Positions 23,860 through 32,322 of a stretch of 64,000 nt of DNA are shown here, piece by piece. Numbering within the stretch: position 1 is the stretch's first letter; each line of letters starts with the position of its first letter. The position numbers were made by a program, and so were the translations under genes. The stretch comes from Muricauda sp. MAR_2010_75. GTDB taxonomy: Bacteria; Bacteroidota; Bacteroidia; Flavobacteriales; Flavobacteriaceae. Location of the stretch: assembly GCF_000745185.1 (NCBI RefSeq), contig NZ_JQNJ01000001.1:829501-893500 (forward strand). The letters run 5' to 3'. A model generated the notes under the pieces. It had not been told where the DNA came from. It made no database searches and worked only from the letters and a program-made list of their open reading frames with translations.

Positions 23860-24768
23860 TTAATACGCCCACATATCTTGCTCCCTGTCTCTTATCTGCT
23901 CTTTGATTCGTTGAGCTTCCAAGAGTTGGAACAATGCATTGTCAAAAATATAATCGTCTATTTCACGGTCTTCGTGAACGTTTTCCTCTTTGTAGATGAC
24001 CGCGTTAAAACGGCGTGCGTTCAACAACATATCAAAGGAAATGGGTCTTGCCGAATTCTGCTGATTGTAAACTTTGGCTTCGTGCAGAATTTGTCTTGCT
24101 GCAGGGTACCACACCCAGAACAATTCAACTTTGTTCTGTCCTGGATCAACGGACTCATCATCGATGAAGTTAACGTCCGGTGCAACAGGTGCAATTCCCA
24201 ACAAACGATACTTAAGCTCTCCTTGTCGCTTGTCGAAATACCAGATTCCTTTAATTCGGTACTCTTCAATATCTGCTGCGGTAAGATCTCTTTTGTTGAT
24301 GAACTCTGGAGAAATTTGTTCGCCCGCATTGTATTGTTCGTACCCTAGGTCTGTGGTATCCACTTTGCTCAAGGTTGCCGAAAGGTCTTCCAACTTTCTC
24401 TTTTCCGTAAAGTAAGAGTCGGTGTAGACCTCGGTCAATTTACCGTTTCGGATGTTTTTCATCAAAACATGGTATAGTGACCTTCTATCCTTTCCAATAC
24501 CTATGGTATCGGTTGGATAATATAGCGGAAAGTTAACTCTCTCGTCAAGATCGATGATTTCCCATATGGTCTTGGACCATAGGATATCCCTATCATCCAC
24601 GTAACCATATTCCAATGGCTCATCGGCATCTTGCTCTATTTGAGCTTGGGTCTTTTTACCGATCTCCTCTGGTAACTTGGCGTTTAAAATGTTTGCCTGT
24701 CCCATCATTGATACGGGCAATACACCCAACAATCCGATTACTAATGCATTTTTCCAATTCATGATCAC
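23860..24768 (-). CDS. gldN: gliding motility / T9SS protein GldN
   Basis: 302 residues with a signal peptide (MNWKNALVIGLLGVLPVSMMGQ; either ATG 24768 or ATG 24762 may serve). The body matches GldN/PorN: ILWSKTIWEIIDLDERVNFPLYYP near residue 62, a DRRSLYHVLMKNI segment, IKGIWYFDKRQGELKYRLLGIAPV, and VELFWVWYPAARQIL. GldN forms, with GldK, the periplasmic ring attached to the outer membrane in the type IX secretion machine. Last gene of gldKLMN, 12 bp after gldM, with a strong terminator downstream. Confidence 0.97.
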   Translation of the reverse strand: MIMNWKNALVIGLLGVLPVSMMGQANILNAKLPEEIGKKTQAQIEQDADEPLEYGYVDDRDILWSKTIWEIIDLDERVNFPLYYPTDTIGIGKDRRSLYHVLMKNIRNGKLTEVYTDSYFTEKRKLEDLSATLSKVDTTDLGYEQYNAGEQISPEFINKRDLTAADIEEYRIKGIWYFDKRQGELKYRLLGIAPVAPDVNFIDDESVDPGQNKVELFWVWYPAARQILHEAKVYNQQNSARPISFDMLLNARRFNAVIYKEENVHEDREIDDYIFDNALFQLLEAQRIKEQIRDREQDMWAY

Positions 24769-24780
24769 TTATATACTTTA

Positions 24781-26352
24781 TTAGTTTGTAATCTCAACAA
24801 CAACAGGAGATACCTTTTTCAATTTGTAGGTCTTGTTGTTGGTGATGTACGCTTGTATGTCAAAAATTTGAACAGCGTCACCTCTACCAGCCCTACTCAA
24901 GGCAGACTTGGCTCTGTTGTCCAATTTGTTACCATTAACAACAACCGTAGGCTGACCTGGCACCTTGAACTTGAACTGACCAACTGCTAGGTTCAAATCA
25001 AAATCAAAGTCTTCCAACATGGCTCCGATGGTAGAAATCTCCAAGTTTCTTCTTGGCATTTGAATGCTACCAGACTCACCACGCACAGTACCAGCTGGTC
25101 TTGGAATATCCTTGATACGGAACTCAGACTTGGTGGAGATACCTTTACCATCTGGCAATGTACCTGAAGCGGTAATAGTAACTGATCTACCTGTACCTGG
25201 GTTCATCACATAATTGCTTCCACTTCTTCTGGTCAGACCAGGAGCGTTGGCACTAACCTTATTATCTGGAATACCAGGAATGGAGATGGTCATTGGGTTG
25301 GCCACACCACGGTAAACTACGTTCATTTTATCTGCAGAGATAACAGCGGCATTAGGCATAGAAATAGTAGCGAAGGTATTATCTATCTCCACTGGCACTT
25401 CAACGCCATCCTGCATATAGGTCATGGTTCCTTTGATGGTGTGATCCCCTGGGGTACCGGCACTGATCAACATCTTGATACCACCAGCTTCCAATTCGTA
25501 ATCTTTACCTTCTGTCAATGGTCTTCCGTCCAAAGTCAATTCAGCTTTTACAGGCGTGGAAGTCTTGTCAGTTTTGCTAACAATGATCTTACCATCGTAC
25601 TTCTCACCTGCATAGTAAGCCGTTTTTGGAGCGGACAATGCACTAGCGAAATTGGTCAAGGATACAGCTTCCGTCAACTCACCTTCCAAAAGGGTTTTCA
25701 ATACCTCTTGTTCAGTGGTTTTAATATCGGCCTGCAACTGGGTCATCTTGGTCAAAGAGGCTACCAATGGGAACCCTTCGTAGTGATAGTTGATCCAATC
25801 TTGACGTGTACCGTCTCTCTTTTCAACCTTACCATCTTCATCACCTGTTGCAAAACGTGTTTTAACCGCTGATTTCAATGCTTCAAACTCGCCTTCCGGC
25901 AATGCGTTGATCACACCTTCACGGTAGGTATTGATTTGATCCATGAACTTTTTTCCTTCTGGGCCCAAATTGTCGCCCTGGAAGAATTTTTGGTCCAAGT
26001 AATCAGACTTGTCCATAACCACATAGTCTTTTGGGTCTTCCAAATCTGCGGTCATTTCCTTTTTCAACCCTTCCAGATAGCTATAGTAGTTATCTGAAAG
26101 TTGTTTGATCTCTTGAGCGTCTTTGTACAGTTCGCCATACTCCTCTTCGTTTTCAGAAGCTTTGGTTTCCAAGCTTGCAAAAAAACTAGAGTTGTTTTCA
26201 TCCATGTTACTGTTGGAAGTTTCCAGCTTTTCGTTCATAAGTCCGAAAGCGGCAAGTACTTCCTTGCTCATATTAAGGGCCAACATCGCGATGAAGATCA
26301 AATACATAAGGTTGATCATCTTCTGACGTGGCGTTTGTTTTCCTGATGCCAT
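24781..26352 (-). CDS. gldM: gliding motility / T9SS motor protein GldM
   Basis: 523 residues. One transmembrane helix lies near the N-terminus (MINLMYLIFIAMLALNMS, about 12-30), preceded by the conserved basic start GKQTPRQK; the rest is a periplasmic shaft of four domains, as known for GldM. The family sequence LALNMSKEVLAAFGLMNEKL is present. GldM and GldL form the proton-powered rotary motor that drives T9SS secretion and gliding; GldM reaches across the periplasm to the GldK-GldN ring. Length is typical. Confidence 0.97.
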   Translation of the reverse strand: MASGKQTPRQKMINLMYLIFIAMLALNMSKEVLAAFGLMNEKLETSNSNMDENNSSFFASLETKASENEEEYGELYKDAQEIKQLSDNYYSYLEGLKKEMTADLEDPKDYVVMDKSDYLDQKFFQGDNLGPEGKKFMDQINTYREGVINALPEGEFEALKSAVKTRFATGDEDGKVEKRDGTRQDWINYHYEGFPLVASLTKMTQLQADIKTTEQEVLKTLLEGELTEAVSLTNFASALSAPKTAYYAGEKYDGKIIVSKTDKTSTPVKAELTLDGRPLTEGKDYELEAGGIKMLISAGTPGDHTIKGTMTYMQDGVEVPVEIDNTFATISMPNAAVISADKMNVVYRGVANPMTISIPGIPDNKVSANAPGLTRRSGSNYVMNPGTGRSVTITASGTLPDGKGISTKSEFRIKDIPRPAGTVRGESGSIQMPRRNLEISTIGAMLEDFDFDLNLAVGQFKFKVPGQPTVVVNGNKLDNRAKSALSRAGRGDAVQIFDIQAYITNNKTYKLKKVSPVVVEITN

Positions 26353-26423: not shown

Positions 26424-27080
26424 TTAGTTTCTTCCACCCATGGCGGTAAGCATACCACCGTAAACTCCGTTCAACGAAGAAAGGTTGGTTGCCAAAGATT
26501 CCATTTGGTCTTTCAATGCACCTGCATTTTGTACCACTTCCTCGTTAATGGAGGCTTGACGGCTAGCGCTTTCCAACTGAACTTTGTACAAGCTGTTCAA
26601 AGATTCCATCTGAGCAGCGGCATGGGACAATTCCTCAGAGTATTTCTTGGTGTGCTGGATCGCATCCGTAGTTGGAGCGATATTTTTAGCGGCACCTTCA
26701 AAACTCTTGATACTTTCACCCAAGCTTGAGAAAAGCTCAGAATCAATATTGGCTTCCTTAAGAAGCTCATCCAATTTTCTGGAAAGGATACCTTCAGCTT
26801 CTTTAGCATCTTTAGCATCCTGCTTTCTTTTGGAATCTGCTTGGCCACCAGACAATTCTGGGTATACCAAAGACCAATCGTATTCGTCGTCTACTGGTTC
26901 AAATGCACTGATAGCGAAGATCAATGCTTCAGTAATAAGTCCAACTGCAAGAAGAAGTCCACCTGTAAGTGGTCCAAACTCCCAGTGAAGGATCTTGAAC
27001 AATGCACCAATAATTACTACCGATGCTCCAAGCCCGTAGGCCATATTAAACAGCTTTTTTGTTGATTTTGACTGTGCCAT
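26424..27080 (-). CDS. gldL: gliding motility / T9SS motor protein GldL
   Basis: 218 residues with two transmembrane helices near the N-terminus (about 12-29 and 35-57). TM1 has YGLGASVVIIGALFKILHW and TM2 GPLTGGLLLAVGLITEALIFAISAFEP, including the conserved acidic residue in TM2 used for proton coupling. The rest is a cytoplasmic coiled-coil domain. Partner of GldM in the rotary motor. A 71-bp gap separates it from gldM and an 80-bp gap with a strong AT-rich hairpin separates it from gldK. Confidence 0.97.
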   Translation of the reverse strand: MAQSKSTKKLFNMAYGLGASVVIIGALFKILHWEFGPLTGGLLLAVGLITEALIFAISAFEPVDDEYDWSLVYPELSGGQADSKRKQDAKDAKEAEGILSRKLDELLKEANIDSELFSSLGESIKSFEGAAKNIAPTTDAIQHTKKYSEELSHAAAQMESLNSLYKVQLESASRQASINEEVVQNAGALKDQMESLATNLSSLNGVYGGMLTAMGGRN

Positions 27081-27160: not shown

Positions 27161-28540
27161 CTATAATCCGCTTCTAGCTCCGTTGGTGGAATCTTCCTCT
27201 CCCATATAATCCTGTACCGTTCTGAATCCGATATAGCTTCTTGCGGAATCTTGGTATTCATAATCCCGGGTACTTACCTGAAGGAAGTAGGCAACATCTT
27301 TCCAAGAACCACCTCGGATCACCTTACGTTTATTGTCTTGGGAACCAATGTTTGGGTTCATGGTGGACAAATATTCGTAAGCACCTGGATCAAAGCTTGA
27401 GTTGGTCCATTCAGAAACGTTACCGGCCATGTTGTACAGGTTGTAATCGTTTGGCTCAAAAGATTTTGCCTCTACAGTGTATAAGGCAGCATCTGCGGCG
27501 TAATCACCTCTTTGTGGCTTAAAGTTGGCCATAAAGCAACCGGTATCACTGATCACATACGGACCACCCCAAGGGTACGATCCTCCTTCAATACCACCTC
27601 TAGCGGCATACTCCCATTCAGCTTCGGTAGGCAATCTAAATTGGTTCACGAATTGCTTACCTCGGCTTTTTTGGTCGTCGTTCTTAAACTTGGTCCTCCA
27701 ATTGCAAAATGCTTTGGCCTGCATCCAGTTGACCCCTACAACAGGGTAATCACTGTATGCATCGTGCCAAAAATAATCATTGTGCATGGGTTCGTTGTAG
27801 GAATATTCAAAATCCCTGATCCACACAGTGGTATCTGGATAAATCTCCAATTCCTCTTGTTTAATAAAGTCTTTTCTACTACCGGTTCTGGCACGGGCCG
27901 CAGCCTCAATGTCCATCCAGTTGTATTTGTATTTTAACTGGGTCACGTCAATGGACCTCAACCCATTATAACTTTCCTCTTCAGGAAGATAAATGGAATC
28001 CATAACCTCAGCATAGTACTCGTCCGGATACTCCGAAGTGTCCCATACCAAGTCTACATCCTTGTTCAATGCTCTTCCTTCATATCCGGTCTCTCCAAGT
28101 CCGGCATAATTGTCGAGCATATACTTGTCGTACACGGAAAGTTCGGTGGTATCTGTATCTTTAAAAGCATACTCACCAATACCTTCGTCTTCTGAGCTTA
28201 TGCCCAGTTCGTCGGCCAAAATGGCCAATTTGGTCCTTACAATGGAATCTTTCACCCACTCTACAAACTGACGGTACTCACTATTTGTGATTTCCGTGTC
28301 ATCCATATAAAAAGAACGTACGGTAACCGTTCTTGTGGGTGCGTTCAAAACTTTTGCTTGATCCTCTTCGGCTTTTCCCATTACGAAGGCGCCACGAGGA
28401 ATAAGTTCCATTCCATACGGTTTCTCCGGATGCCATTTTTTTCCAGGGGCCCCAACCAACTCACCTTTTGACCTTGATTTTGAGCCACAACTGCTAAGCA
28501 AAAAAACAAGTGCTATAGATGATAAGAATAGCTTTCTCAT
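27161..28540 (-). CDS. gldK: gliding motility / T9SS lipoprotein GldK
   Basis: 459 residues. Lipoprotein signal MRKLFLSSIALVFLLSSC with lipobox LSSC at Cys18. The rest is a formylglycine-generating-enzyme-like (FGE-sulfatase) fold: IPRGAFVMGKAEED, YMDDTEITNSEYRQFVEWV, YPVVGVNWMQAKAFCNWR, FRLPTEAEWEYAARGG, NMAGNVSEWTNSSF and IRGGSWKD. GldK uses this fold structurally, not as an enzyme, and builds the outer-membrane-attached ring with GldN. A CAAAACTA box at 28601 may drive gldKLMN separately from topA. Confidence 0.97.
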   Translation of the reverse strand: MRKLFLSSIALVFLLSSCGSKSRSKGELVGAPGKKWHPEKPYGMELIPRGAFVMGKAEEDQAKVLNAPTRTVTVRSFYMDDTEITNSEYRQFVEWVKDSIVRTKLAILADELGISSEDEGIGEYAFKDTDTTELSVYDKYMLDNYAGLGETGYEGRALNKDVDLVWDTSEYPDEYYAEVMDSIYLPEEESYNGLRSIDVTQLKYKYNWMDIEAAARARTGSRKDFIKQEELEIYPDTTVWIRDFEYSYNEPMHNDYFWHDAYSDYPVVGVNWMQAKAFCNWRTKFKNDDQKSRGKQFVNQFRLPTEAEWEYAARGGIEGGSYPWGGPYVISDTGCFMANFKPQRGDYAADAALYTVEAKSFEPNDYNLYNMAGNVSEWTNSSFDPGAYEYLSTMNPNIGSQDNKRKVIRGGSWKDVAYFLQVSTRDYEYQDSARSYIGFRTVQDYMGEEDSTNGARSGL

Positions 28541-28600
28541 ACTTTAGGTTAAATTATTCGATTCAAGATTATAAACTGCTCTACACAAATTCATTACTCT

Positions 28601-28608
28601 CAAAACTA
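28601..28608 (-). promoter_or_regulatory. -7 box (TAGTTTTG on minus strand) before gldK
   Basis: Reverse complement of CAAAACTA in the 120-bp gap upstream of gldK; it would give a leader of roughly 50-60 bases. The -33 spacing is not ideal. Confidence 0.4.
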
Positions 28609-28660
28609 CTTTTTGAATGAATTATTGTGTAAAATCAATTAATGCCAAAAATTAATTTAT

Positions 28661-29818
28661 TTAGTTAAAGCCCTTTCTGTAGGCCTTGAACCACCTTTCT
28701 GGAATGTTTTGGTTGCAAGCATCCAAATAGTCCCCCTCGGTGCAAGGTAATAACGCAACCGAATTTGTTTTAGTATGTTCAGGTAAAATTGATGGGACTT
28801 CCACCCACCAGCGTTCGGTAACATGGCTTTTATAGAAGACCAGCTCCTCAGTATCCGTGGGCACGGTGAATTTGGTAAAATCCTCACTTTGTGAAGTTGG
28901 GGTTTCCTTGACCCTAAAGCTCAACCCCTCTATAAAGTACCAGATGATCTGTGCAATCATTTGAAAGGCCTGATGGGAGTTCTCCCCCTCGTAGATGCCA
29001 AATAACGATACCCGGTCACTGATACCGGCATATCGGGCAATGGTGCAGATTTCCCTCCCGGTAAAACCGTTGGGCGAAAAGTTTTTGGACAGTCCCATTT
29101 CGCTGGCACGAATGGCACGAAGGTCCAGGCTCACAATATCGCTGCTCCGCAAGACCGGTTCGGTCAACTCTATATCCGCAGCTATTTCTCCCAACCGGTA
29201 GGCATCAAAGAAAAGGCGCTCCATAAGGTCTATTTCTTCTTGGGCATTAAAATAGCTTTGGTAGCCAATATTGGAAAAGTTGAAAAGATTATTGGGCTTA
29301 TCGGTAATGATTCTACTCATGTAAGAGTGTGAGGAAATCAATTCGTCGTCCTCACCAAAATCAAACCGGCTGTCAATGGAGACCAAGTTCACCATTTCCT
29401 TGATCTTGTCAAAAGCCCGATAGGTGGGAAAGGTTATATCCTGGGTACATCCTATTATAATAGGTATGATATTTTCTTCCAGAAGGCCTGCCACAATCTC
29501 TTTGACCACAAAGTAGGTGTCCTCGACCGTATCACCCTCTTCCACATCGCCTATATCGATGATGGTGGAGTTCCAGTTACCCATCATAAGGCGATAGAGT
29601 TGGATACGGATTTCATCCACATCCAATAGTTCAGTCTTTTTCTCAAATGCGTTTCTGGATTCCAGCACCCCAAAAATGGCAACATCGGCATGGGCAAAGA
29701 CGGGAAGTCCGTCCTTTTCGGTGTGCACATGAATGTTCTTGCCCAATGACTGTTGTGGCAGCAACTCGGAATGTGCCAACACTTTGTCCTTCACAGGAAC
29801 CAAAAAATCGAATGCCAT
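28661..29818 (-). CDS. arginase/formimidoylglutamase-fold protein lacking most metal ligands
   Basis: 385 residues from ATG 29818; a longer frame runs into topA. The fold is the arginase/ureohydrolase superfamily: LLEENIIPIIIGCTQ (normally ending GGGH), VSIDSRFD (normally DAHxD) and SLDLRAIRASE (normally DxDxxDP). At residues 123-126 the metal-binding His is Gln; at 149-153 the central His is Arg while both Asp remain; at 232-236 the second Asp is Arg. With three or more ligands lost, a binuclear Mn site is unlikely, so ureohydrolase activity is doubtful. It is set between topA (1 bp) and gldK (120 bp). Databases usually label such proteins formimidoylglutamase; a structural or regulatory role fits better. 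Confidence 0.8.
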   Translation of the reverse strand: MAFDFLVPVKDKVLAHSELLPQQSLGKNIHVHTEKDGLPVFAHADVAIFGVLESRNAFEKKTELLDVDEIRIQLYRLMMGNWNSTIIDIGDVEEGDTVEDTYFVVKEIVAGLLEENIIPIIIGCTQDITFPTYRAFDKIKEMVNLVSIDSRFDFGEDDELISSHSYMSRIITDKPNNLFNFSNIGYQSYFNAQEEIDLMERLFFDAYRLGEIAADIELTEPVLRSSDIVSLDLRAIRASEMGLSKNFSPNGFTGREICTIARYAGISDRVSLFGIYEGENSHQAFQMIAQIIWYFIEGLSFRVKETPTSQSEDFTKFTVPTDTEELVFYKSHVTERWWVEVPSILPEHTKTNSVALLPCTEGDYLDACNQNIPERWFKAYRKGFN

Positions 29819-29819
29819 A

Positions 29820-32303
29820 TTATTTCTTAGCTTTTGACTTGGCTTTTTTCTTAGGGGTTTTCTTTTCCAAAAGGGCCTTGGCTTCTTCCAGCGAGACTTT
29901 GGAGGCATCCACATCTTTGGACAGTTCCACCTTTACCCTACCTTTTATGATATTGTGCCTTCCCCAACGAGCTTTTTCTATACGGATTTTCTCCTCGGGC
30001 CATTCCTGCACTACCTTTTCGGCCTCTTTTTTCTTTTTATCTTCAATAAGTTCCTCAATGTCGGACTGGGAAAGGTTGTCAAAATCGTATTTTTTGTTCA
30101 CGTTGATGAACATTCCATCCCATTTAATGAAAGGCCCAAACCGTCCTTTACCTTTGGTAACCTCTTTGCCCTCGTAACTGGCAATGGGTGCATCCGCTTT
30201 TTCCTTTTCCTTGATCAATTCAATGGCCCTATCCAAATCTACATCAAAAGCACTTTCGCCCTGACCCAGTGAAATGAATTTTTTTCCAAATCGAACATAG
30301 GGGCCATATCGCCCCACGTTCGCCTCAATCTCTTCTCCTTTATATTCGCCCAATTTTCTGGGGAGTTGAAAAAGCTCCATGGCCTCTTCAAAGGTGATGG
30401 TATTGATGGACTGATCGGGCAACAGGCTTGCGAACAAAGGTTTTTCTTCTTCATCCACGGTTCCAATCTGAACCATGGGACCAAATCGGCCCAATCTGGC
30501 GGCTACTTGTCGACCCGATTTTGGATCAACACCCAAAACACGCTCTCCACTGGCACGTTCGGCGTTTTCCTCAACCTCCAATACGTTGGGGTGGAATTCC
30601 TTGTAAAAGGATTTCATCATATGTTGCCAATCCTCATCCCCGGCAGCAATTTCATCAAAATCTTCTTCTACCTGGGCGGTAAAATTATAATCGAGGATTT
30701 TGGTAAAGTGGCTCACCAAAAAATCGTTCACGATCATTCCTATATCGGTGGGCACCAACTTGCCCTTATCTGAACCGACCATTTCGGATAATTTCTTCTC
30801 CGAAAGTTTTCCTTCCTCCAAAACCAATTGAAGATAATTGCGTTCCGTACCTTCCACACTTCCTTTCTCCACATATCCTCGATTTTGAATAGTGGAAATG
30901 GTGGGAGCATAGGTTGATGGTCTTCCAATGCCCAACTCTTCCAATTTTTTCACCAAGGAGGCTTCCGTATAGCGATACGGTGGTCTTGTAAATCGTTCCG
31001 TTGCAGAAATGAAAACATTTTGCAACGCCTCACCTACCTGCATGGCCGGAAGCATTCCTTCTTGTTCCTCGGCACTGTCCTCTTCGTCAGTTCCTTCCAA
31101 ATACACTTTCAGGAAACCATCAAACTTTACCACCTCTCCGTTGGCGGTAAATTCCTCTTGGTGCTTGTTGGCCTGAATCTTGACATTGGTACGTTCCAAC
31201 TGGGCATCGCTCATTTGCGAGGCCAGGGTTCGTTTCCAAATCAGTTCATATAATTTTGATTGGTCCCGCTCCAACGAGGGGGATTGTAATTTCATATCTG
31301 TGGGGCGAATGGCCTCGTGCGCCTCTTGGGCCCCTTTGGATTTACCCGTGTAATTCCGCACTTGGCTGTACGAATCCCCATAATTCTCAATAATGGCATC
31401 TTTCGCCGCGCCCAATGCCTCATTGGATAGGTTTACGCTATCCGTTCGCATATAGGTAATGAGACCGGCTTCGTACAATCGCTGGGCCACTTGCATGGTT
31501 CTGCTCACCGAAAAATACAGCTTACGGGACGCCTCTTGCTGTAAAGTGGATGTGGTAAAAGGTGGTGCGGGCGATTTTTTGGCCGGTTTTTTGTCCAAGT
31601 TGGCCACCGAAAAATCAGCCCCCATATTTTGTTTCAAGAAAGCCTCTGCTGCTTCCTTGTCTGAAAAGGTTTTGTTGAGTCGTGCTGAAAACACGTTCCC
31701 GTCCGCAGTTTTAAACTCAGCTTTGATTCGGAATGACGCTTCTGGTGTAAAGGCATCAATCTCACGTTCGCGCTCCACGATCAATCGCACCGCTACCGAC
31801 TGTACCCGGCCTGCCGAAAGCCCAGGTTTTATTTTTTTCCACAATACCGGTGAAAGTTCATAGCCCACCAATCGGTCCAAGACCCTTCGGGCCTGTTGCG
31901 CATTCACCAAATTATAATTGATTTCCCTCGGATTTTCTATGGCCTTTTGGATCGCTGACTTGGTAATGGAGTTGAAAACAATTCGTTTTACCTTACTCTT
32001 GTCCAACTTCAGCTCTTCGGCCAAGTGCCAAGAAATGGCCTCTCCCTCCCGGTCCTCATCACTGGCCAACCAGATGGTGTCTGCTTTTTCGGCGAGGTCC
32101 TTAAGTTTTTTAACCAAGGCTTTTTTCTCCTTGTCTACCGTATATTTTGGCTTAAAGTCGTTTTCTACATCAACCCCAAGTTCTTTGGACGGAAGGTCTA
32201 CGATATGTCCGAAACTAGATTCAACTTGGTATTCTTTTCCGAGAAAACGTTCTATGGTCTTTGCCTTTGCGGGGGACTCAACAATAACTAAATTCTTTGG
32301 CAT
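29820..32303 (-). CDS. topA: DNA topoisomerase I (type IA)
   Basis: 827 residues from ATG 32303 (MPKNLVIVESPAKAKTIERFLG); an upstream extension is not conserved. TOPRIM domain with the ESPAKAKT Glu and DEDREGE acidic triad, the active-site Tyr284 in LITYMRTDS, and the type IA core (GRPSTYAPTISTIQNRGYVE). The C-terminus has no cysteine zinc ribbons; instead it has repeated GRFGPMVQ, GRYGPYVRFG, GRFGPFIKW units and a Lys-rich tail (KKTPKKKAKSKAKK), as in other Bacteroidota. It relaxes negative supercoils. A TACTTTTG box (minus strand) lies 20 bp upstream. Confidence 0.97.
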   Translation of the reverse strand: MPKNLVIVESPAKAKTIERFLGKEYQVESSFGHIVDLPSKELGVDVENDFKPKYTVDKEKKALVKKLKDLAEKADTIWLASDEDREGEAISWHLAEELKLDKSKVKRIVFNSITKSAIQKAIENPREINYNLVNAQQARRVLDRLVGYELSPVLWKKIKPGLSAGRVQSVAVRLIVEREREIDAFTPEASFRIKAEFKTADGNVFSARLNKTFSDKEAAEAFLKQNMGADFSVANLDKKPAKKSPAPPFTTSTLQQEASRKLYFSVSRTMQVAQRLYEAGLITYMRTDSVNLSNEALGAAKDAIIENYGDSYSQVRNYTGKSKGAQEAHEAIRPTDMKLQSPSLERDQSKLYELIWKRTLASQMSDAQLERTNVKIQANKHQEEFTANGEVVKFDGFLKVYLEGTDEEDSAEEQEGMLPAMQVGEALQNVFISATERFTRPPYRYTEASLVKKLEELGIGRPSTYAPTISTIQNRGYVEKGSVEGTERNYLQLVLEEGKLSEKKLSEMVGSDKGKLVPTDIGMIVNDFLVSHFTKILDYNFTAQVEEDFDEIAAGDEDWQHMMKSFYKEFHPNVLEVEENAERASGERVLGVDPKSGRQVAARLGRFGPMVQIGTVDEEEKPLFASLLPDQSINTITFEEAMELFQLPRKLGEYKGEEIEANVGRYGPYVRFGKKFISLGQGESAFDVDLDRAIELIKEKEKADAPIASYEGKEVTKGKGRFGPFIKWDGMFINVNKKYDFDNLSQSDIEELIEDKKKKEAEKVVQEWPEEKIRIEKARWGRHNIIKGRVKVELSKDVDASKVSLEEAKALLEKKTPKKKAKSKAKK

Positions 32304-32322
32304 GCACTGGGTTTTGTGGTAA

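Follow-up and report, generated by a model that had tools for sequence, protein, structure and literature searches.

Gene content of the window

The 64,000-nucleotide (nt) stretch of the Muricauda sp. MAR_2010_75 genome analysed here (contig NZ_JQNJ01000001.1, positions 829,501 to 893,500; hereafter the window) carries on its reverse strand, in order, topA, a gene for an arginase-like protein, gldK, gldL, gldM and gldN (Table 1). The arginase-like protein, referred to below as the pseudo-ureohydrolase, belongs to a family that has lost half of the binuclear metal site of its relatives, is under strong constraint and often lies beside genes of the type IX secretion system (T9SS) and gliding machinery. 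It has the Pfam Arginase domain (35.1 bits; cut-off 22) and the arginase alpha/beta fold. In a fold comparison formiminoglutamase is nearest, and chains of metformin hydrolase are among the best matches. No signal or membrane stretch was found by a simple hydropathy check.

Table 1. Pseudo-ureohydrolase gene, its altered motifs and its neighbours in the window
Feature	Coordinates	Strand	Remarks
Pseudo-ureohydrolase gene	28661..29818	-	385 amino acids from ATG; named formimidoylglutamase in databases
GCTQ motif	29441..29452	-	Gln (residue 126) in place of the first-metal His of GGxH
DSRFD motif	29360..29374	-	second-metal His of DAHxD is R151; D149 and D153 retained
DLRA motif	29114..29125	-	R234 in place of the second Asp of DxD, a second-metal ligand; D232 retained
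C-terminal extension, residues 306-385	28664..28903	-	beta strands and two helices
Conserved leader, pseudo-ureohydrolase to gldK	28541..28660	-	120 nt in the window
topA	29820..32309	-	directly upstream; 1 nt from topA stop to pseudo-ureohydrolase ATG
gldK	27161..28540	-	NCBIfam TIGR03525, 607.7 bits
gldL	26424..27080	-	NCBIfam TIGR03513, 234.1 bits
gldM	24781..26352	-	NCBIfam TIGR03517, 469 bits
gldN	23860..24768	-	NCBIfam TIGR03523, 274.5 bits

Loss of metal ligands

The metal ligands of ureohydrolases occupy six columns, which are divided here between the first and second metal according to rat arginase numbering. The pseudo-ureohydrolase has Q126, D149, R151, D153, D232 and R234 at these columns, versus H, D, H, D, D and D in both intact paralogues of the same genome. 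A preliminary description of the window had reported the three motif losses, and all three were found at the exact coordinates listed in Table 1.

Homologues were compared in 80 close loci (L004-L083) and 80 diverse loci (L114-L193; about 63 families by label, one to five loci chosen per family). An aligned set of 84 members comprises the diverse loci, the window protein, L004, L075 and L082. All 80 close loci have the ligand pattern QDRDDR (78) or QDRDDT (2). None of the 84 aligned members keeps six or five ligands; four are kept in 12, three in 55, two in 10, one in 6 and none in 1. Column 126 is most often Gln (55 members), His (11) or Asn (7), column 151 Arg (30), Lys (18) or Ser (10), and column 234 Ser (47), Gly (10) or Asn (7). 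Asp is present at position 149 in 73/84 members, at 153 in 73/84 and at 232 in 79/84. The ligands that serve the second metal only (151 and 234) survive, singly, in 3/84. The losses are therefore common to the homologues, and a search for gldK-adjacent homologues with intact ligands found none (0/36 diverse and 0/80 close loci).

Nine relatives fetched from outside the family (L194-L202) have five or six ligands; the first His is Asn in two of them, and in one an Asp is exchanged for Asn. A core tree separates the family from these nine relatives and the two paralogues (support 0.982). In the simplest history, the second-metal site would have been lost once, ahead of the radiation of the class (that of the window genome, Bacteroidia). 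The loss is old and common to the homologues, and the suggestion that the protein is no longer a ureohydrolase very likely holds.

In L197 and L201, HutG-type enzymes from outside the class, GGGN replaces GGGH. The Trypanosoma cruzi formiminoglutamase structure PDB 4myn is titled as an N114H variant, and this position may match the GGGN position of L197 and L201.

Database name and paralogues

The closest relatives of the pseudo-ureohydrolase come from Flagellimonas, Allomuricauda and Muricauda; most of those with a name are entered as formimidoylglutamase or arginase. The same names prevail among those listed for 6473 protein clusters (not individually inspected) matched in one database search. 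If the public name were right, the protein would be an ordinary formimidoylglutamase, and the nearest fold agrees with this. However, the ligands are lost, and the window protein scores only 39.1 bits with NCBIfam hutG, far below the cut-off of 229.15; two other members score 90.2 and 80.0 bits. The genome also encodes a true HutG (297.6 bits) and an agmatinase (232.1 bits; cut-off 174.3), both intact and located elsewhere (about 2.06 and 4.29 Mb, versus 0.86 Mb for the pseudo-ureohydrolase). The low hutG score and the true HutG elsewhere indicate that the public name is wrong, as the preliminary description had supposed, and by the tested criteria the family is not HutG. That these proteins are formimidoylglutamases after all is a reading that can practically be dismissed. 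The enzyme name misleads metabolic models.

New constraint and an added C-terminal domain

The median ratio of nonsynonymous to synonymous substitution rates (dN/dS) against seven relatives is about 0.023 for the pseudo-ureohydrolase gene, 0.025 for gldK and 0.024 for topA; as dS is near or past saturation, these ratios indicate strong constraint rather than an exact value. The gene is kept by strong purifying selection. When 378 columns were ranked by entropy across the 84 members, E220, R224, G251, G265, W293 and C359 were invariant, Q187, F328, W337, W338, Y364 and D88 varied once and R71 varied twice. The former ligand positions rank lower (D232 22nd, D149 40th, D153 41st, and the lost positions 234 and 151 188th and 275th), and so selection holds mainly residues outside the old active site.

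These ranks bear on the possibility that the protein is an enzyme turned to a chemistry other than urea release, with a site for one metal only (the first), formed by Gln, His or Asn at 126 with D149, D153 and D232. All three first-metal Asp residues are indeed retained in 67/84 members, 66 of which have Q, H, N or E at position 126. Against such a site, 17/84 members lack one or more of these Asp residues, including three (L140, L145 and L149) that lie beside gldKLMN, E277 is retained in only 56/84, and D149 and D153 rank below the new near-invariant set. An enzyme of this type is unlikely.

The C-terminal extension falls outside the alignments of HutG-type relatives, among the matches listed. 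Its near-invariant residues are F328, W337, W338, C359, D363, Y364 and W376. In family f61 (L181 and L182; also the matches in G293 and G669) the arginase-like N-terminal half is short or unrecognisable and the C-terminal half is kept. These several f61 genomes hint that the added C-terminal domain is the working part.

Distribution among genomes and neighbourhood

In a sample of 296 genomes of the class, the homologue is present in 280 and GldM in 287 (both in 277, GldM only in 10, homologue only in 3, neither in 6). A second, profile-based search of the 16 genomes lacking the homologue was negative for all 16. A few of the 280 matches are weak (such as G058, G090, G092 and G293), and 130 are without a listed place: a profile recheck of 64 of them matched all 64, and the other 66 come from the first search alone. 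Matches in Flavobacterium (P0165 and P0188) imply that Flavobacterium johnsoniae probably has the homologue too. A sample of 247 genomes of the phylum includes 61 of the class by label, with the family in 58 and GldM in 59; among the 186 genomes outside the class, GldM scored above its cut-off in none (3 weak matches). The family and GldM thus have the same class limits.

gldL lies near the homologue (within about 7 kb) in 75/80 close loci. In the diverse loci, gldL and topA are on the strand of the homologue wherever they lie near it (36/36 and 40/40, respectively), and the order topA, pseudo-ureohydrolase gene, porP, gldKLMN recurs across many families. The interval between the homologue and gldK holds one or two same-strand open reading frames (ORFs) of 301-386 amino acids in 34/36 loci, and the ORFs found there match PorP/SprF (35/35). 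No PorP/SprF ORF is present between the two genes in the window or in the own-family loci L114 and L115. A second T9SS-type neighbourhood occurs in families f61 (L181 and L182) and f49 (L169), where the homologue adjoins murF and GldJ-like and PorP/SprF genes are close by. The GldJ-like proteins of L181, L182 and L169 score 410.9, 410.2 and 435.4 bits, below the cut-off of 458.2. L181 also has a nearby gene for a C25 peptidase domain protein, which we take to be PorU. As murF and the homologue are convergent in f61 and f49, they do not share an operon.

A leader of 115-125 nt separates the homologue from gldK in 80/80 close loci. The blocks CACAATAA, TTCAAAAA, AGTTTT and ATTTAACCTAAAGTATG of this leader are largely conserved between genera (21 sequences), and it may be a gldK promoter or regulator site. 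The distance from the topA stop codon to the ATG of the homologue is 0-4 nt in 62/80 close loci. For the 40 topA-bearing diverse loci, with start codons picked by script, it varies between -1 and 512 nt. Judged by the spacing in the close loci, topA and the homologue resemble the first two genes of one operon, and gldK seems to be governed by a separate leader.

Covariation of evolutionary rates was calculated for the 22 loci with all genes, given the distances of topA, miaB and a sigma-54 activator (p values uncorrected). The homologue covaries with gldK (0.40, p 0.026), and the reference pair gldK-gldM reaches 0.66 (p 0.001) in the same test. Covariation with the T9SS genes is suggestive at best.

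Evidence against a T9SS role

The preliminary description proposed that the protein could be a non-enzymatic component or regulator of the T9SS/gliding machine. Several observations weigh against this reading, beginning with its distribution. The homologue is absent from 10/287 GldM-positive genomes of the class sample and from 14/53 of a further set of GldM-positive genomes that was picked to include suspect families (one of them, G675, was scored as negative with a partial match of only 45 bits). GldM occurs without the homologue in sampled members of families f19, f32, f55, f65, f66, f72, f113, f116 and f117; a sister (G519) of the homologue-negative f72 genome has the homologue. SprA is present with GldM in three of the ten homologue-negative genomes of the class sample (G155, G213 and G285), two of which (G155 and G213) also have GldN. 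Since GldM-positive lineages lack the gene, it is dispensable for T9SS and does not encode a core component. Only the idea of an accessory protein or regulator thus survives from the original proposal, and a core role is highly improbable.

The reverse case, a homologue without a GldM match, is found in 3/280 genomes (G267, G226 and G056). SprA is present in G267, so that the missing GldM is probably due to fragmentation. G226 and G056 were searched for GldM, GldN and SprA and none was matched; the homologue match of G056 lies less than 500 nt from a contig start. A second sample of 346 class genomes has 8 that are GldM-negative, of which 3 are new, and all 3 lack the homologue. Among the nine genomes with neither a GldM match nor the homologue, G121 has GldN and SprA, so that fragmentation is again the probable cause, and five belong to f32, whose GldM-positive members also lack the homologue, so that these co-losses are hardly independent.

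Within family f39, G226 keeps a full-length homologue without GldM, GldN or SprA matches, and its sister G038 has GldM and GldN matches and no SprA match. Partial loss of T9SS in G038 and full loss in G226 are possible.

The locus is similarly ambiguous. Retention beside gldK in other flavobacteria, which was expected from the position of the gene, was found in the close loci, but gldL is near in only 36/80 diverse loci (topA in 40, both in 34), and 38/80 have neither topA nor gldL near. Where the neighbourhood is broken, the homologue stays with topA in L116, L135 and L143 (with enough sequence on both sides) and with gldKLMN in L132 and L166; L126, L141 and L164 are ended by contig ends. The functionally unrelated control gene miaB (453.9 bits; cut-off 355.3) accompanies topA in 27/40 diverse loci. 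This neighbourhood is therefore slow to rearrange, which makes synteny weak evidence. The tight topA gap and the separate gldK leader speak against simple co-transcription with gldKLMN in the clade of the window, where the gene appears coupled to topA and not to gldK. Covariation is 0.33 with gldM (p 0.052), 0.32 with gldN (p 0.057) and 0.14 with porP (p 0.19); with gldL it is nil (-0.01, p 0.55), and so lends no support to GldL as a partner.

The miaB control, the tight topA gap, the separate gldK leader, the genomes in which GldM and the homologue do not occur together and the 38 loci with neither topA nor gldL near would fit a non-catalytic binding protein with a housekeeping or regulatory function unrelated to T9SS, near gldKLMN only through an inherited gene order (miaB, topA, pseudo-ureohydrolase gene, porP, gldKLMN). 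The identical class limits of the family and GldM, the other T9SS-type neighbourhood, that of f61 and f49, and the weak covariation with gldK and none with miaB argue the other way, and we consider this alternative possible though doubtful. The chance of any T9SS link is itself put at somewhat less than even.

Comparison with known systems

HutG (T. cruzi 4mxr/4myn and Bacillus subtilis 3m1r) differs from the pseudo-ureohydrolase, in which three of the six metal ligands are gone and a C-terminal part of about 80 residues is added, besides the hutG score far under the cut-off. A parallel is the MetCb/MefH-beta subunit of metformin hydrolase, in which, according to the available text of PMC11271267 and PMC11399263, five of the six ligands are changed and metal was not seen; the available text of PMC11399263 describes MefH-beta as inactive. 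It is likewise an arginase-fold pseudoenzyme and, by the same accounts, acts through protein binding. By analogy, the pseudo-ureohydrolase might pair, as an inactive subunit, with an active ureohydrolase in the same cell. The intact HutG and agmatinase of its own genome and the metformin hydrolase chains among the best fold matches are compatible with this idea. However, MetCb/MefH-beta is encoded beside its active partner, whereas in the window genome the active paralogues are far off and the neighbours are topA and gldK. In one order sample, 24/80 genomes have the family without a second arginase-like match, although the profile may miss some. A partner-subunit role is thus very unlikely. 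MetCb/MefH-beta is also termed recently evolved in the title of PMC11399263, unlike the class-wide pseudo-ureohydrolase family.

The available text of PMC11271267 also cites a Trypanosoma brucei arginase-like protein without the binuclear manganese cluster and calls the functions of such cluster-less proteins elusive. Going by its title, this protein is similar in lacking the cluster but is eukaryotic. Metal-less arginase-fold proteins are already known.

The pseudo-ureohydrolase often shares a locus with GldK/PorK, GldL, GldM and GldN and, like GldM, is limited to the class; it differs from them in having no signal or membrane stretch and in being missing from GldM-positive lineages. A literature search, with most subscription papers outside its coverage, found no mutant data for the gene and no paper tying the protein to T9SS. 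In the available text of the T9SS review PMC10202324, a cytoplasmic domain is named only for GldL/PorL and neither "arginase" nor "glutamase" is mentioned. The pseudo-ureohydrolase is not among the 20 motility and T9SS proteins listed in the available part of PMC7440613, and the accessible text of PMC8986121 was examined for mentions of operons and partners.

Proposed model

The proposed model for the pseudo-ureohydrolase is as follows. A cytosolic protein would have descended from a HutG-type enzyme, by the simplest account in a single event no later than the base of the class. By its sequence, it has lost the half of the binuclear site that held the second metal and has gained the C-terminal domain. 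To judge from its conservation, it most likely acts by binding rather than hydrolysis, through a new constrained set of residues (R71, Q187, R208, E220, R224, W293, W337, W338, C359 and Y364) that lies on the core and the added domain. Because the gene is kept in most sampled members of the class, often beside T9SS genes, even though half of the site is lost, its job is probably non-enzymatic. Locus, class range and the weak rate covariation suggest that the partner is most probably the envelope machinery of T9SS and gliding, or the system that controls it. An ancient HutG-derived binding protein of this kind, perhaps a dispensable T9SS/gliding accessory and not a core part, is the best overall explanation, with a probability of roughly 0.45. 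The more specific proposal of an unrecognised class-wide T9SS/gliding accessory or regulator, recruited from histidine catabolism, hidden under the formimidoylglutamase name and using a conserved R224/E220/W293 face with the W337-W338/C359/Y364 domain, is tentative and rather unlikely. Should a link to T9SS exist, the secretion/gliding machine would have a cytosolic element in this protein; if not, the family is still an ancient group of pseudoenzymes that shows a clean loss of half of the site and has a new domain.

A second recurring gene context

Of the 38 loci with neither topA nor gldL near, 17 carry a member of one cluster of sugar-epimerase-type (NAD-dependent) genes. This gene is divergent and lies about 1.1-1.2 kb upstream of the homologue in 12 of the 14 listed (17 in total). 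Examples are positions 5854-6822 of L159 and 5812-6822 of L118; one member was tested with Pfam. The epimerase-type neighbour forms a second recurring context of the family, one with no obvious T9SS meaning.
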